Origin: Geothrix fuzhouensis
Lineage (GTDB): Bacteria; Acidobacteriota; Holophagae; Holophagales; Holophagaceae
Assembly: GCF_024609325.1 (NCBI RefSeq)
Contig: NZ_JANHMQ010000002.1
Location: forward strand, 62,001-126,000
Direction of reading: 5' to 3'
DNA: 64,000 nt
Below are positions 4,266-28,081 of the stretch, piece by piece; positions within the stretch are counted from its first letter, which is position 1; the number at the start of each line of letters is the position of its first letter. Under the pieces are notes generated by a model. That model was not told the DNA's origin. It did not search any database and saw only the letters and a list, made by a program, of their open reading frames with translations. The translations under genes were made by a program, and so were the position numbers.

Positions 4266-4784
4266 CTAGCCCACCTTCACCGCGAAGGGCTTGAAGCCGG
4301 CCTTCTTCAGCTTCTCGGCGGCCTTGTCGATGGCCGCGCGGTCGGCGGACTTGGCGAGGCGCACCTTCACCTGGCCCTTCTCCTTGTGGGTGGTGGTGGC
4401 GAAGCCCGCGGCCTTGGCCTTGTCGGCCACGCGCTTGGCCTCGGCCGGATCGGAGGTGGCGACCAGCTGGAGGGTCCAGGTGCCGCCTTCGGCCGGCGCG
4501 GCCTCCGCCTTCGGCTCCACCCTGGGCGCCGCGGCGTCCACCCGTGGCGTCGCCACCAGCTTGTCCGGCCCGTCACCCTCGAAGATCTTGAGCTGGTCCA
4601 GCAGGGGCTCGGGGAGATCCTTCAGTTCCTCCTCCACGCCGCGCTGGGCGGGACGGCGCAAGGCCGCGCCCTGCTTGCCCACCTGGACCCCGAGAACAAA
4701 CGCCAGGGTCACCAGGCCCACACCCACGCCCGCCACCCAGAGGATGGATTGGCTGCCGATGCTGATCTGGTCGCGCTGGATCAT
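4266..4784 (-). CDS. Membrane-anchored SPOR-domain protein
   Basis: A 172-residue protein with a short cytoplasmic N-terminus, one membrane helix (about 15-34, ILWVAGVGVGLVTLAFVLGV) and a proline/alanine-rich linker. A C-terminal SPOR-type domain (about 98-172) begins GTWTLQLVATSDPAEAKR. SPOR domains bind denuded peptidoglycan and often bring proteins to the septum. The start at 4784 puts the transmembrane helix in the usual place. Its ATG overlaps the stop of the upstream ketosynthase-like gene by four bases, so it is probably translated with the fatty-acid-type operon 4781-7719. A link between that operon and the cell envelope is an inference from this coupling. Confidence 0.75.
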   Translation of the reverse strand: MIQRDQISIGSQSILWVAGVGVGLVTLAFVLGVQVGKQGAALRRPAQRGVEEELKDLPEPLLDQLKIFEGDGPDKLVATPRVDAAAPRVEPKAEAAPAEGGTWTLQLVATSDPAEAKRVADKAKAAGFATTTHKEKGQVKVRLAKSADRAAIDKAAEKLKKAGFKPFAVKVG

Positions 4785-21706: not shown

Positions 21707-21798
21707 GAAAACCTCCGACAGGAAGGATGAACTTAATACATCGTGAATCGATATATACTCCCTCCATTCGCATCCGCAACATCTTTCCCGGACCACTC

Positions 21799-23073
21799 AT
21801 GACGCCCGCCCGCCTGCTCCGCCGTCTGGTCCTCCTCGAGGAGGGCGAGGCCCCGGCGCTGCTCTGGTCGGCGCTGTACTTCTTCCTGCTGCTCTTCGGC
21901 TTCTACCTGCTGCGGCCCGTGCGGGAGGCCATCGGCATCGCCCGAGGCGCGGACAAGCTGCCCTGGCTGATGACGGGCACCCTGGTGGCCATGGCGCTGG
22001 CGAATCCGGCCTTCGCCGCCCTGGTGTCGCGGCTCCCGCGCCGGCGCTTCATCCCCTGGGCCTACCGTTTCTTTGCGCTCAACATGCTGGCCTTCTTCCT
22101 CGCCTTCCGGCTGCTGCCCGGCCACGGCGGCGCGGGCCTGGGCTATGCCTTCTACATCTGGCTCAGCGTCTTCAACCTCTTCGTGGTGTCCGTGTTCTGG
22201 GGCCTGATGTCGGACGTGTGGTCCGGGGCCCAGGGTAGGCGGCTCTTCGGCTTCATCGCCACCGGCGGCACCCTGGGTGCCATCGCGGGCGCGGCGCTCA
22301 CCGGGGCCCTCACGAAGGGCTTTGGCCTGGGTGGCCTCCACTTGAAGGTGGATCCACTCTCCCTCCTGCTGCTGTCGATGGTGACGCTGGAACTGGCCGT
22401 GCAGTGCGTCAAGCGCCTGGCGACAATCTTCGCGCTGGGCGACGTGGCCCACGGCGCACGGGAACCCGGCCCGGGCCTGCTGGAGGGTCTGCGCCTCATC
22501 ACCACCTCCCGCTACCTCCAGCTCATCTGCGCCTACATGCTGCTCTTCACCATCACCAGCACTTTCCTCTATCTGCAGCAGGGCGCCATCGTGGCGCGGG
22601 CCTTCAGTGGCACGGCAGCACGGACGGCGGCCTTCGCCCGCATCGACCTCTGGGTGAACGTGCTGACCCTGGCCACCCAGGTGTTCCTCACGGGGCGGAT
22701 CATCACCAGGCTGGGCATCCCCTTCGTGCTTTCCATCCTGCCGGTGCTGAGCCTGGCGGGGTTCGGCGCCCTGTGGGCCTGGCCCACATTTGGGGTGATG
22801 GCACTGTTCCAGGTGCTGCGCCGCGGCTTGCACTACGCCGTGGACCGGCCCGCCCGGGAGATCCTCTACATCCCCCTCGGGCCCGAGGAACGCTACAAGT
22901 CGAAGCCCTTCATCGACACCTTCGTCTACCGCGGGGGGGACCTGCTGGGGGTCTGGGCCCCCACGGCCCTGATGGCCCTGGCCATCCCCGTGGGCTTGGC
23001 GGCGGTGGGCTGTTCGGGTCTCTGGTTGGGCAGCAGCCTCGCGCTGGGCCGTCGCGTGAAGCAAATCGGTTGA
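21799..23073 (+). CDS. Multi-pass transporter, ATP/ADP translocase (NTT)- or MFS-like
   Basis: A 424-residue integral membrane protein with about 11-12 hydrophobic helices. The first helix region is LLWSALYFFLLLFGFYLLRPVREAIGI. The YFFLLLxxYYxLRPxR pattern recalls ATP/ADP translocase-like proteins of free-living bacteria, which are not known to exchange nucleotides. Further landmarks are FWGLMSDVW and a conserved-looking loop RGLHYAVDRPAREILYIPL. It is divergent from the Tat-exported epimerase. The short gap holds an AT-rich palindromic stretch (ATCGTGAATCGAT, near 21742). Substrate unknown. Confidence 0.7.
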   Translation: MTPARLLRRLVLLEEGEAPALLWSALYFFLLLFGFYLLRPVREAIGIARGADKLPWLMTGTLVAMALANPAFAALVSRLPRRRFIPWAYRFFALNMLAFFLAFRLLPGHGGAGLGYAFYIWLSVFNLFVVSVFWGLMSDVWSGAQGRRLFGFIATGGTLGAIAGAALTGALTKGFGLGGLHLKVDPLSLLLLSMVTLELAVQCVKRLATIFALGDVAHGAREPGPGLLEGLRLITTSRYLQLICAYMLLFTITSTFLYLQQGAIVARAFSGTAARTAAFARIDLWVNVLTLATQVFLTGRIITRLGIPFVLSILPVLSLAGFGALWAWPTFGVMALFQVLRRGLHYAVDRPAREILYIPLGPEERYKSKPFIDTFVYRGGDLLGVWAPTALMALAIPVGLAAVGCSGLWLGSSLALGRRVKQIG

Positions 23074-23200
23074 CTTTCCGCCCTCATCCCGGATGATGTC
23101 GGACATGGTTCGTCTGTCTGAACAGCTCCTGAGTGCCTCGCGGGTCTCCGCGATGGGCGCTGCGCGCCTGGGCGCGACGGGTACCGGGCTGTCCTGCCAG

Positions 23201-23251
23201 ATGATGACCACCAACGGTACCATTACGCACCCGGACCACCGCGGCGCCTGA
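23201..23251 (+). CDS. thrL: Thr/Ile-rich leader peptide of the thrABC operon
   Basis: A 16-residue ORF, MMTTNGTITHPDHRGA, upstream of thrA. Four Thr codons (ACC ACC, ACC, ACG) and one Ile codon (ATT) fall within seven codons, the hallmark of a leader that senses charged tRNA-Thr and tRNA-Ile, as in the E. coli thr operon. A GC-rich hairpin with a short T-run lies 22 bases after its stop. The frame is open further upstream to an ATG at 23094, so the leader could be longer (52 residues). No strong Shine-Dalgarno is visible before either start. The gene is called from composition and position. Confidence 0.65.
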   Translation: MMTTNGTITHPDHRGA

Positions 23252-23273
23252 CCTGACCCTTCCTTCAGATTCG

Positions 23274-23298
23274 GCCCCGCGCACCCCGCGGGGCTTTC
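23274..23298 (+). promoter_or_regulatory. Attenuator-like terminator before thrA
   Basis: GCCCCGCG (23274-23281), loop CACCC, CGCGGGGC (23287-23294), then TTTCTGT. It lies between the Thr/Ile-rich leader peptide and the thrA start, where a transcription attenuator is expected. The T-run is short. An alternative antiterminator pairing was not worked out. Confidence 0.65.
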
Positions 23299-23322
23299 TG
23301 TATTGAGCCATACGGAGTCCCC

Positions 23323-25806
23323 ATGCAGCCCACCCCCATCCGCGTCATGAAATTTGGCGGGACCAGTGTCGCTGGCGCCGCGCGACTCCGCACCGTGGCG
23401 GACCTGGTGGTCGCCGCCCGGACCACCCACCGCGTCTGCGTCGTGGCCTCGGCCATGGCCGGGGTGACGAACCTGCTGGTGAACGAGGGTCGCGTGCCCG
23501 ATCCGGCCGCCGCGGATCAGCTCATGGACAGGTTTCGGGCCGTCCATGCCGAGGTGGTGGAGGCGCTGGCGGAGGAGTTGGGCGCCGGCCTGGGGGCGCT
23601 CCGCGCTGAGCTGGACGGATTGGAGAGTCTTGGCCGCCGCCTGCTCCACGGCATGGCTCTGCTGGAGGAAGGGCCGCCCTCGGTGTTGGCCCAGGTGGCG
23701 AGCCTGGGCGAGCGGGCCTCCTGCGCCATCCTGGTGGCCCTGCTGGCGGCCCGGGGCCTGCAGCCCTGCTACCTGGACCCCGTCGAGCACGTCCGCGTGG
23801 AGGGCGACCCGCTCCAGGCCCGGCCCTGCCTGGCCGAGACGGAAGCCCGCTTCGCCGCGGTGAAGGCCGGCAGCGGCGACCTCTGGGTGTTGCCGGGGTT
23901 CTTCGGCGGCGATGCCCAGGGGCGCATCCTGTCCCTGGGGCGCGGCGGCTCCGACCACAGCGCGGCCCTGGCGGCCGCGGCCCTGGGCGCGGAGCTGCTG
24001 GAGATCTGGACCGACGTGGTCGGCCTCTACAGCGCCGATCCCCGCCTGGTGCCCGAGGCCTTCCCCCTGCCGGAAGCCAGCTTCGAGGAGGCCATGGAGC
24101 TCTCCTTCTTCGGCGCGAAGGTCCTCCACCCGAAGACCATCCCACCTGTGCGCGAGCGCGGCATCCCCGTGCGGGTGTGCAGCAGCTTCGACCCCGCCCA
24201 CCCCGGCACGGTGATCCGCGAGGCGGTGCCACCACCCCCCAGTGGCGTGCGGGGCATCTCCTTCCTGCGGGGCCTCTCCGTGGTCAACCTCACGGGGCCG
24301 GGCATGCTGGGGGTGCCGGGCATCGCGGGCCGGGTGTTTGGCGCCCTGGCGCGCAAGGGCATCTCGGTGGTGCTCATCACCCAGAGCTCGTCGGAGCTGT
24401 CCATCTGCTTCGCCGTGCGCCAGGCAGATGGGCCCGGCGCCGTGGCGGCCATCCAGGAGGCCTTCCCCGCGGAGCTGGCGGCGGGCTTCCTGGATCCCCT
24501 GGATCTGCGCGAGGGGCTCTCCGTGCTCAGCATTGTGGGCGACGGCATGCGCACCCGGCCCGGCGTGGCGGGCACTTTCTTCGACGCCCTGGCGGAGGTG
24601 GGCTGCAACGTGGTGGCCATTGCGCAGGGCGCCAGCGAGCGGATCATCTCCGCTGTGGTGGACGAGGCCGAGGGCGCCCGGGCCCTGCCGCACATCCACC
24701 GCCGCTTCTTCCAGACCCAGGTGGTGGTGGACGTGCACCTCCTGGGCGCGGGCAACGTGGGGAGCAGCCTGCTGGGCCAGATCCAGCGGCAGCAGGCCAA
24801 GCTGGCCCAGCAGGGCCTCGACCTGCGGGTGACCACCATTGCCACCAGCCGCCGCATGCGGCTGGACGCCAAGGGCTTGGACCTGGACCACTGGCGGGAG
24901 GACCTGGCGCAAGGTGAGCCCACGGACGTGGACCGCCTGATGGCCGTCGTCCGCAACGGCCCGCCGGCCTTGTCCGTGCTGGTGGACTGCACCACCAGCG
25001 GCGACCTGGCCGCCCGTTACCCGGAGCTCTTCGACGCGGGCTTCCACGTGGTCACGGCCAACAAGAAGGCCAACAGCGCCTCCCAGGCCTTCTACCGCGA
25101 GCTGCGGCAGCGCTCCTCCCGCCGGGGCCTGCGTTTCCTGTACGAAGCCAACGTGGGCGCGGGCCTGCCCATCATCGACACCGTGAAGAACCTGGTGCTC
25201 ACCGGCGACCGGGTGCTGCGCGCCGAGGGTATCCTCTCGGGCTCCATGTCGTACATCCTGGGCCTTCTGGGGGATGGGGTGCCGCTATCCGAGGCCGTGC
25301 GCTCCGCCAAGGAGAGCGGCTTCACCGAGCCGGATCCCCGAGACGACCTCAGCGGCATGGACGTGGCCCGCAAGCTCCTCATCCTGGCCCGGGAGCTGGG
25401 CATGGAGCTGGAGCTGGCGGACGTCCAGGTGGAGGGCCTGCTGCCGGAGTCCTTCGACGCCAGCGGCGATATCCCCACCTTCATGGCCCGCTTGCCGGAG
25501 CTGGACGCGCCGTTCCGGGAGCGTCTGGCAGCCCTGAAGTCCGAGGGGAAGACCTTGCGTTACGTGGGCAGCCTTTCGGACAGTGGCTGTCGCGTCGGCC
25601 TACTGCCGGTGGACGGGGAGCATCCCTTCATGCCCATCAAGGGTGGCGAGAACGCCTTGGCCTTGCTCACGGAGCGCTACCAGCCCCATCCCATGGTCAT
25701 CCGCGGCTACGGCGCGGGAGCGGAGGTGACGGCCGCGGGCGTGCTGGCGGATGTGCTGCGCCTGGTGCCACCAGGCGCCCGGCCCTCGCGGCGGAGGGCT
25801 TCGTGA
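23323..25806 (+). CDS. thrA: Bifunctional aspartokinase / homoserine dehydrogenase
   Basis: An 827-residue fusion, close to E. coli ThrA (820). The N-terminal kinase begins [16 protein letters not shown] and has the [16 protein letters not shown] loop and the [14 protein letters not shown] region. Paired ACT regulatory domains lie at about 310-460, with [19 protein letters not shown] and [19 protein letters not shown]. The C-terminal homoserine dehydrogenase (about 465-820) has the NAD(P) loop [10 protein letters not shown], then [10 protein letters not shown] and [14 protein letters not shown] with the downstream acidic residues [16 protein letters not shown]. It catalyses the first and third steps from aspartate to threonine. 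Threonine feedback through the ACT domains is expected. The stop overlaps the thrB start (GTGA). Confidence 0.96.
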
Positions 25807-26816
25807 CCTCCTCTGACTTTTCCCTGGCGGGCGTGACGGCCTACGCCCCCGCCAGCATCGGCAACTTCGCCGCGGGGTTCGACCTGTTGGGCGCGGCCCT
25901 CGCCCCCCTGGACGGCAGCCTGCTGGGCGACCTCGTGCATGCCGCGCTGGCGCCGGAGGCCTCCTTCCAGCTGGAGGGGCCGTTCGCCAAGGCCCTGGCG
26001 GACGACACCCGTCCCAACCTGGTGCTGCGGGTCGCAGACCTCTTTCAGGAGGCGCTGCAGGCGAAGGGTCGGCCGGTCGGCCCCTTTGCTCTCCGTCTGG
26101 AGAAGCGGCTTCCCGTGGCCAGCGGCCTCGGTTCCAGCGCCAGTTCCATCGTGGCCACCCTGGCGGCCCTCCAGGTCCTCTGCGGGGATCCCCTCTCCGT
26201 CCCTGAACTGCTCGAGCTGGCGGGACGGGCCGAAGGCAGCACCAGCGGCGGCATCCACCTGGACAACGTCGCGCCTTCCCTGTTGGGCGGCCTGCAGCTC
26301 ACGGTCCCGGGTCGCGATGGGAAGCCCGCCGCCCGCCGCTTGCCCTGGCCCACGGACCTGCTGCTCGTGGTGGCGCATCCCGACTACCAGCTGGCCACGG
26401 CGCGAAGCCGAGCTGCCTTGCCGGAGCGACCGGCCTGGACCGAGACGGTGGAATTCGCGGGCAACCTCGCGGGCTTGGTGCACGCCCTGCACACCGACGA
26501 CCGGGCCCTGCTGGCGCGCTGCCTGCGCGATCCGCTGGTGGAGGCTCATCGCGCGCCGCTGGTACCGGGCTTCCGGGCGGCGCAGGCTGGGGCCCTCGCC
26601 GCCGGGGCGCTGGGCTGCACCTTGTCGGGCTCCGGGCCCTCCGTGTTCGCGGTAGCCGGGGATGAGGCGGACGCTGGCGCCGTGGCCGCGGCCCTCCAGG
26701 AGGGCTTTGCCCAGGCGGATCTGCCCAGCCGCGCCTGGATCTGCGCCCTGGATCTGGAAGGCGCCCGAACCCTGTCGCCCGTGCCCCGCCATCCTCTGTT
26801 CGAGGCCCACCCATGA
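25803..26816 (+). CDS. thrB: Homoserine kinase
   Basis: A 337-residue GHMP-family kinase that phosphorylates homoserine. Motif 1 is [19 protein letters not shown], the ATP-binding motif 2 is [19 protein letters not shown], and motif 3 near the C-terminus is [16 protein letters not shown]. The GTG start lies inside the thrA stop (GTGA at 25803-25806), and the stop overlaps the thrC start (ATGA at 26813-26816), so the three genes are translationally coupled. Length is normal for the family. Confidence 0.95.
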
Positions 26817-28081
26817 AGCTCGCCAGCACCCGGAATCCCTCCACCCAGGCCACCTTCCTGGAGGCCGCCCGCATGGGTCTGGCCCCGGACGGTGGCCTCT
26901 TCGCCCCTGTGGCGATCCCCCCGTTCAGCGATATGGCAGATCTGCTGAGACTCACCTTCCTGCCCCGCTCCGTAGAGATCCTGCATCGCATCCTGGGCGA
27001 CGAGCTGCCCCGACTGGTGGTTGAGGATCTGGCCCGCTCTGCGTTCACCTTCCCGGCGCCCCTGGTGCCGGTACGGCCCGGGATCTCCGCGCTGGAGCTG
27101 TTCCACGGGCCCACGCTAGCCTTCAAGGACTTCGGCGCCCGCTTCCTCGCCCGCGTGCTGGCCCTCGATGCAGGCGCCAAGCCCCGCACCGTGCTCACGG
27201 CCACCTCCGGTGATACCGGCGCCGCGGTGGCCAATGCCTTTCTGGGCCTGCCGGGTGTGCGCGTGGTGGTGCTCTATCCCTCGGGCCGCGTATCGCCACT
27301 GCAGGAGCGCCAGTTCGCCACCTGCGGCGGCAACGTGCTGGCCCTGGCGGTGGATGGCGTGTTCGACGACTGCCAGCGCCTGGTGAAGGGGGCCTTCGAG
27401 GACCCTGAGCTCGTCGGCAGTCTGGGCCTCACTTCCGCCAACAGCATCAACATCGCCCGCCTCCTGGCGCAGCTGCTGTACTACTTCGAGGCTGCAGCCC
27501 AGGCCGAGCGCGGCGCACCCCTGACGGTGGCCGTGCCCAGCGGCAACTTTGGCAACCTCTACGCGGGCCTGCTGGCCCAGGCCATGGGCGCGCCCATCGG
27601 CGCCTTCGTGGTGGCCACGAACGCCAACCGCGTGGTGCCGGACTACCTCGATACCGGGGTGTACCGCCCCCGGCCCTCGGTGGCCACGCTCTCCAACGCC
27701 ATGGACGTGGGCTCGCCCAGCAACTGGGAGCGCATCCACGCGCTGTTCCGCGGCGATCATGACGCCATGGCCGCGGCCCTGCGCTGGGGTGTCCGCAGCG
27801 ACGCGGAGACACGGCAGACGGTCCTCGACCTGGACCGCGAAGGCTACCTGGCCGATCCCCACGGGGCCGTGGCCTGCGGCGTGCTTCAGGCCCAGCTGCG
27901 CGAGGGTGAGCAGGGCATCTTCCTCGCCACGGCTCATCCCGCCAAGTTCCGCGAGTCCCTGGAACCCACCCTGGGCAGGGAGATTCCGCTGCCCAGGGCC
28001 CTCAGCGACTTGCTGGAGAAACCGCTGCTGAACGAGCCGCTTCCTGCGGAGCAGGCGGCGCTGAAGCGCAGGCTGAGCTGA
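26813..28081 (+). CDS. thrC: Threonine synthase
   Basis: A 422-residue PLP enzyme that converts phosphohomoserine to threonine. The PLP lysine is in FHGPTLAFKDFGARF. The phosphate-binding loop and neighbours are TATSGDTGAAVANAF, and the C-terminal part has VAVPSGNFGNLYAGLLA. The size and the EcoThrC-like order of motifs point to the class I (short) type. It is the last gene of thrABC; the next gene is convergent, on the minus strand. No obvious terminator hairpin is seen in the 18-bp gap. Confidence 0.95.
   Translation: MKLASTRNPSTQATFLEAARMGLAPDGGLFAPVAIPPFSDMADLLRLTFLPRSVEILHRILGDELPRLVVEDLARSAFTFPAPLVPVRPGISALELFHGPTLAFKDFGARFLARVLALDAGAKPRTVLTATSGDTGAAVANAFLGLPGVRVVVLYPSGRVSPLQERQFATCGGNVLALAVDGVFDDCQRLVKGAFEDPELVGSLGLTSANSINIARLLAQLLYYFEAAAQAERGAPLTVAVPSGNFGNLYAGLLAQAMGAPIGAFVVATNANRVVPDYLDTGVYRPRPSVATLSNAMDVGSPSNWERIHALFRGDHDAMAAALRWGVRSDAETRQTVLDLDREGYLADPHGAVACGVLQAQLREGEQGIFLATAHPAKFRESLEPTLGREIPLPRALSDLLEKPLLNEPLPAEQAALKRRLS

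Follow-up and report, generated by a model that had tools for sequence, protein, structure and literature searches.

A conserved candidate thr attenuator with a probable leaderless start upstream of thrABC in Geothrix

The thr locus and its leader

The 64,000-nt stretch of DNA analysed here (the window) belongs to the 3.3 Mb genome (G000) of a soil bacterium of the genus Geothrix, placed in the family Holophagaceae of the little-studied phylum Acidobacteriota, and contains a thrABC operon preceded by a promoter, a short open reading frame and a hairpin. The features on which the analysis is built are the following:

23070-23075, plus strand: TTGACT, the -35 box of the thr operon promoter; no other promoter-like site was reported between 22900 and 23500
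23092-23097, plus strand: -10 box GATGAT, after a 16-nt spacer, at a position conserved in relatives
23105-23251, plus strand: thr leader ORF of 48 codons (MVRLSEQLLSASRVSAMGAARLGATGTGLSCQMMTTNGTITHPDHRGA), ending in TGA 23249-23251, with a start conserved in relatives and probably leaderless
23207-23227, plus strand: control codons ACC ACC AAC GGT ACC ATT ACG (4 Thr, 1 Ile), recognised by enrichment over 35 distinct leaders
23240-23248, plus strand: arm 2 (CGCGGCGCC), the last three sense codons and the predicted 5' half of the antiterminator, from folding and pairing scans
23253-23268, plus strand: predicted inner antiterminator stem, CTGA (23253-23256) with TCAG (23265-23268), from the fold and from conserved columns
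23273-23281, plus strand: arm 3 (GGCCCCGCG), common to the antiterminator and the terminator, from hairpin search and fold
23287-23299, plus strand: arm 4 (CGCGGGGCT, 23287-23295) and the start of the T-rich tail, from hairpin search and fold
23323-25806, plus strand: thrA, bifunctional aspartate kinase/homoserine dehydrogenase I (NCBIfam NF006959, 973.9 bits, cut-off 726)
25803-26816, plus strand: thrB, homoserine kinase, with a 4-base overlap with thrA (TIGR00191, 214.9 bits, cut-off 168.25)
26813-28081, plus strand: thrC, threonine synthase, with a 4-base overlap with thrB (TIGR00260, 282.7 bits, cut-off 167.1)

The gene that precedes the promoter (21727-23073) shows a weak match to the TLC/NTP-NDP exchange transporters, below the NCBIfam cut-off and with 28.7 bits in another search; these transporters are unusual outside intracellular bacteria and plastids.

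A preliminary description of this DNA had proposed a short ORF starting at 23201 and encoding the peptide MMTTNGTITHPDHRGA. The peptide is indeed encoded by 23201-23248, followed by the TGA codon at 23249-23251, and its TTNGTIT stretch holds the four Thr codons and one Ile codon that had been counted across seven positions. The start has to be moved, since the frame is open upstream and relatives keep an ATG at 23105, and the ORF first described is the final third of the 48-codon leader that begins there. Two further in-frame ATGs lie upstream (23093 and 23096), both overlapping the -10 box, and ATG 23105 is the best-supported start because the distance between promoter and ATG is constant across relatives.

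Counted from the first base of the -35 box, this ATG lies 35 nt downstream. A TTGAC motif is found 35-36 nt ahead of the leader ATG in all 60 Geothrix thrA loci compared and in 15 of 19 leaders from other Holophagaceae, the exceptions being one locus truncated by its contig end (L121), two with weak boxes (L124 and L125) and one with none (L126). Given this placement of the -35 and -10 boxes, transcription probably starts at about 23103-23105, within some two bases of the leader ATG, so the leader mRNA is probably leaderless, and a transcript beginning at the ATG would have no room for a Shine-Dalgarno site. Leaderless genes were predicted to make up 13.3% on average in three Acidobacteria genomes (PMC3160421, in the part of that report available).

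Conservation, codon content and distribution

The 60 Geothrix loci were taken from two collections (30 from each, with many strains in common and the window's own locus included; L072, a distant match from Cellulomonas, was excluded) and comprise 35 distinct leaders. The nearest named relatives at thrA are G. oryzisoli, G. paludis, G. terrae, G. campi and G. fermentans (93-95% identical across the matching portion). The same layout is kept in 60 of 60 loci: TTGAC, ATG, an in-frame ORF of 37-48 codons and a GC-rich terminator. The Thr/Ile codons, whose conservation in relatives the preliminary description had made a test of its reading, are kept in all of them as well, together with the stop codon, the alternative arm and the terminator, and these features recur in other genera of Holophagaceae. 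A different gene lies upstream of ten of the 35 distinct leaders, which indicates that it is thrA that the element accompanies, not the neighbouring gene.

The 35 leaders served to build a covariance model (R1), with which 93 genomes of the class were searched; its matches above 80 bits fell in 36 of the 47 same-genus genomes, exactly the 36 that carry a bifunctional thrA. The remaining 11 (G001, G009, G010, G011, G019, G021, G028, G064, G066, G068 and G070) have neither thrA nor the leader; one of them (G009) has a thrC over the cut-off and the other ten do not, with two thrA-bearing genomes as controls. Among these genomes without thrA is one in a single contig with a stated completeness of 100%.

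The leader peptide is poorly conserved as a protein. Its N-terminal half differs between clades (MVRLSEQ, MSFPVK, MHMSVE, MRAAFI), no Pfam or NCBIfam family was found for it, and the 51-residue leader peptide used as a protein query matched only 8 of 60 relatives, being too divergent, so the leaders of relatives were collected by locating thrA and reading upstream. The HPDHRGA end, which had been suggested as possibly conserved, is so in part: a terminal RG(A/T/V) is present in 34 of 35 leaders (RSA in L026), and HPDH is restricted to the nearest clade. This conserved end is the same stretch as RNA arm 2, which indicates that it is conserved as RNA and not as peptide.

Taken by itself, the Thr/Ile content of the window is not significant: when the final 60 nt of the ORF are dinucleotide-shuffled, 1548 of 10000 shuffles have at least as many Thr+Ile codons. 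Nothing can be concluded from this stretch in isolation, and the case is a comparative one. Across the 35 distinct leaders, which are related to each other and whose Thr counts are hence not independent, Thr accounts for 184 of the 700 codons in the final 20 positions and for 42 of the 662 that precede them (the background in nine ORFs of the window is 175 of 3595). In 1000 shuffles of these last 20 codons the Thr count had a mean of 81 (sd 7) and a maximum of 103, and the enrichment is specific to the leader frame: Thr takes 50 and 10 of 665 codons in the other two. As a separate observation, 33 of the 46 Ile control codons of the leaders are ATT, a codon used for 14 of 138 Ile in a background that prefers ATC (Fisher p = 3e-15); the window's ATT is at 23222-23224, and the Asn codons of the leaders shift in the same way.

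The distribution of such leaders was surveyed with a detector that looks for a short ORF with at least five Thr+Ile in its last 20 codons followed by a terminator. It recognised 35 of 36 Geothrix thrA loci (missing L027), 16 of 20 from other Holophagaceae (missing L110, L117, L118 and L127; lowering the threshold to four raises the count to 18 of 20) and the three gammaproteobacterial thr operons used as controls. Among the thrA loci of other Acidobacteriota, taken from elsewhere in the class and phylum, it found none of 21 at the threshold of five, and at four a single weak case far upstream (L075); these 21 are the loci retrieved from 199 genomes of the phylum (42 with a thrA match) plus four others. 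None of three Bacteroidota loci was detected, the stretch from Rufibacter (L180) ending before its terminator. In that locus, on a plasmid of Rufibacter tibetensis, a Thr/Ile-rich short ORF and a terminator were seen by eye about 100-130 nt before thrA, so Thr leaders may occur beyond Holophagaceae and Gammaproteobacteria. In another genus of the family (g19, L126), a SAM riboswitch (86.5 bits, 4477-4583, minus strand) lies upstream of, and on the same strand as, the aspartate kinase/homoserine dehydrogenase gene preceded by a Thr leader.

Leaders of other amino acid operons were also seen in this lineage. In the window's own genome, trpE (G000:C1, L168, 573325-574650, minus strand) is preceded by the leader MPLSFPTLRQGLLHGAWWWRTGSDGSSREA, with three Trp codons (WWW), and then by a terminator; a TTGACA box stands 37 nt before its ATG, a near-leaderless distance, and the leader has switching arms of its own. 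Leaders with two or three Trp codons precede trpE in the six Geothrix loci inspected, one of them from a genome without thrA. The leuB-ilvD interval (L128, reverse strand, G000:C1:851700-859700) contains, ahead of ilvD, two leaders in tandem in which Val, Ile and Leu codons abound, each with a terminator, and a similar pair occurs in G007 (L129). By eye, no leader attenuator was found upstream of Geothrix leuA, which is preceded by an apparent divergent regulator gene, or of hisG, which is internal to an operon. With trp and ilv leaders alongside those of thr, attenuation looks like a habit of the lineage.

Alternative structures and proposed mechanism

The hairpin and T-run that had been noted before thrA are present in part as described: the hairpin (23273-23295) is GC-rich, with a 9-bp stem and a 5-nt loop, and the tail is T-rich yet imperfect (TTTCTGTATT); in L034, L035 and L040 the tail is poor. 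The 5' arm of this terminator, arm 3, can pair alternatively with arm 2, in the window with 8 pairs, -18.6 kcal/mol and one C-C mismatch (the antiterminator of the window's clade). In 30 of 35 leaders no stretch of the ORF pairs better with arm 3 than arm 2 does; the exceptions are L014, L015, L016, L018 and the window's own L001, where another stretch of the ORF pairs better. In shuffle tests, 67 of 500 shuffles were as good as the arm 2 of L001, so composition explains much of its pairing, and the arm 2/arm 3 pairing was not significant in L109 (203 of 500), L117 (378 of 500) and L118 (360 of 500). None of 13 pairs changed on both sides within Geothrix, where covariation is uninformative because the arms are near-invariant, and compensatory changes were therefore read across genera: the arms change jointly to CGGGGGT/ACCCCCG in g17 and to GGCCGG/CCGGCC in g20, and in L125 and L126 GCGGGGCC is paired with GGCCCCGC.

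The leaders were also folded in silico in the presence of a ribosome, hiding the RNA as far as 12 nt downstream of the A-site codon's first base (an assumed footprint) and calling an antiterminator when at least 6 arm 2/arm 3 pairs formed. When the last Thr codon occupies the A-site, the antiterminator folds in 22 of 35 leaders; in the other 13, a ribosome stalled there would hide too much of arm 2. If stalls at the next-to-last Thr codon are counted as well, all 35 leaders form it. A ribosome placed at the stop codon hides arm 2, and the terminator folds instead. In ribosome-free RNA the terminator is dominant in 30 of 35 leaders and the antiterminator is favoured in the other five.

A control-codon ORF, an intrinsic terminator, an antiterminator that excludes the terminator and depends on ribosome position in silico, and conservation at the same gene are thus found together here, as is expected of an attenuator. 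The element is very probably a ribosome-mediated transcription attenuator of thrABC, judging from sequence comparison, and the comparison supports the preliminary description, which had proposed this mechanism. RNA polymerase would start at about 23103-23105 and a ribosome would load at the leader AUG without a Shine-Dalgarno site. When charged Thr-tRNA and Ile-tRNA are ample, the ribosome would advance to the UGA at 23249 and cover arm 2 (23240-23248), leaving arm 3 to pair with arm 4, and transcription would end ahead of thrA. When Thr (or Ile) is scarce, the ribosome would stall within 23207-23227, with arm 2 just past its downstream edge; arm 2, being free, would pair with arm 3 to form the antiterminator, braced by the CTGA/TCAG stem, and polymerase would enter thrABC.

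Other readings of the same features can be weighed against this one. The ORF might stall ribosomes for another cause, such as translation stress or an antibiotic, or act through Rho or through translation of thrA, in which case Thr would not be the signal. Leaderless initiation may itself respond to stress, and such a response would favour this possibility; it is nevertheless very unlikely, since the enriched residues match the operon in each case (Thr/Ile before thrABC, Trp before trpE, Val/Ile/Leu before ilvD) and an intrinsic terminator lies close behind the leader stop codon. Somewhat less likely again is that the hairpin is the ordinary terminator of the upstream gene and the short ORF an accident of GC-rich sequence. 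That gene has the same orientation and stops some 200 bp short of the hairpin, and the window sequence alone does not beat its shuffles; against this, a conserved promoter stands between gene and hairpin, the leader is retained in the 10 of 35 cases lacking this neighbour and is present exactly where thrA is among the 47 same-genus genomes, and the Thr enrichment is confined to one frame. That the leader encodes a trans-acting small protein with an incidental Thr run is the least likely of the three: its frame is conserved and trans-acting attenuator peptides exist (peTrpL of S. meliloti; PMC7298713, in the part of that article available), but the N-terminal half is unconserved between clades, across which only the Thr/Ile codons and the RNA arms persist, and the peptide query and family searches described above recovered few relatives and no family.

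Relation to known attenuators and possible origin

Threonine attenuation by translation of a leader is known above all from E. coli and related bacteria. The proposed ribosome-mediated attenuator of thrABC, a conserved element with a probable leaderless start and a mechanism deduced by comparison, would place a thr attenuator in a new phylum and extend leader-peptide attenuation, its textbook thr example included, to the Acidobacteriota. If the start is leaderless, ribosome and polymerase would begin together at base 1, a simple means of synchronisation.

Almost none of the attenuators predicted in Acidobacteria had an assigned function in the available part of one survey (PMC2965389), and another counted leader genes in Acidobacteria with no thr case among them in the part available (PMC4833913). 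In the open-access literature on attenuation and leader peptides in Acidobacteria, as far as its available text goes, no description of a thr element was found, nor was a Geothrix attenuator found in the open-access literature. Relevant parallels come from other groups, each as presented in the available part of its source. The trpL transcript of Sinorhizobium meliloti has its 5' end at the leader ATG (PMC7298713), as the Geothrix one would by its predicted start, although trpL responds to Trp, belongs to an alphaproteobacterium and encodes a leader of 14 residues. The attenuators predicted in Actinobacteria (trp, ilvB, leuS; PMC1262725) share a leader peptide, alternative hairpins and GC-rich terminators outside the Proteobacteria, but they belong to another phylum and no thr attenuator is named among them. 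The His leader peptides before hisS in bacilli (PMC2965389) are a case of leader-peptide attenuation outside both Proteobacteria and Actinobacteria, and differ in their amino acid and in belonging to Firmicutes.

The relation of the ThrA proteins themselves has been considered too. E. coli ThrA is 44-47% identical to ThrA of Holophagaceae in the six loci compared (47% to that of the window), whereas ThrA from four other Acidobacteriota is 37-38% identical to that of E. coli and 38-41% to that of the window. In a 56-row ThrA tree, which had only 3 gammaproteobacterial rows, gave long-branch warnings and included one MetL-type outgroup row (L182), Holophagaceae and Gammaproteobacteria came together (99/91), apart from the sampled other Acidobacteriota and Bacteroidota, which suggests horizontal transfer. 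Because ThrA groups in this way and the detector finds leaders in the same two groups, it is conceivable, though on balance doubtful, that thrABC and its Thr/Ile attenuator have a single origin common to Gammaproteobacteria and Holophagaceae, by transfer or from a common ancestor, and joined in the latter a leaderless set of thr, ilv (two in tandem) and trp leaders. Thin sampling, the long-branch warnings, the Rufibacter leader and the ease with which such elements converge speak against a shared origin. The common grouping of ThrA offers a testable case for the spread of such regulators.

At the level of RNA families the element stands apart. The Thr_leader covariance model of Rfam (RF00506) reached its gathering score of 55 bits in none of the 93 class genomes, its match in the window's own genome (30 bits) lying elsewhere than the thr locus, while the positive controls scored 122 (E. 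coli), 60 (Proteus) and 56 bits (Aeromonas). Rfam searches of the whole window and of the leader at a permissive threshold gave nothing relevant, with no T-box or riboswitch in 23050-23400.

The closest likeness in organisation is nevertheless to thrL of Gammaproteobacteria (RF00506), where a bifunctional thrA also heads the operon and Thr and Ile codons exert the control. As in E. coli thrL, arm 2 lies at the very end of the ORF and the intrinsic terminator follows 20-30 nt past the stop codon. The E. coli leader has 21 codons, whereas those of Geothrix have 37-48 and a much less dense Thr run, and the AUG of E. coli thrL follows an untranslated stretch, unlike that of Geothrix, with which the RNA probably begins. 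Read from its sequence, the Geothrix element is one that would work like thrL, yet it falls outside RF00506 as that model stands.
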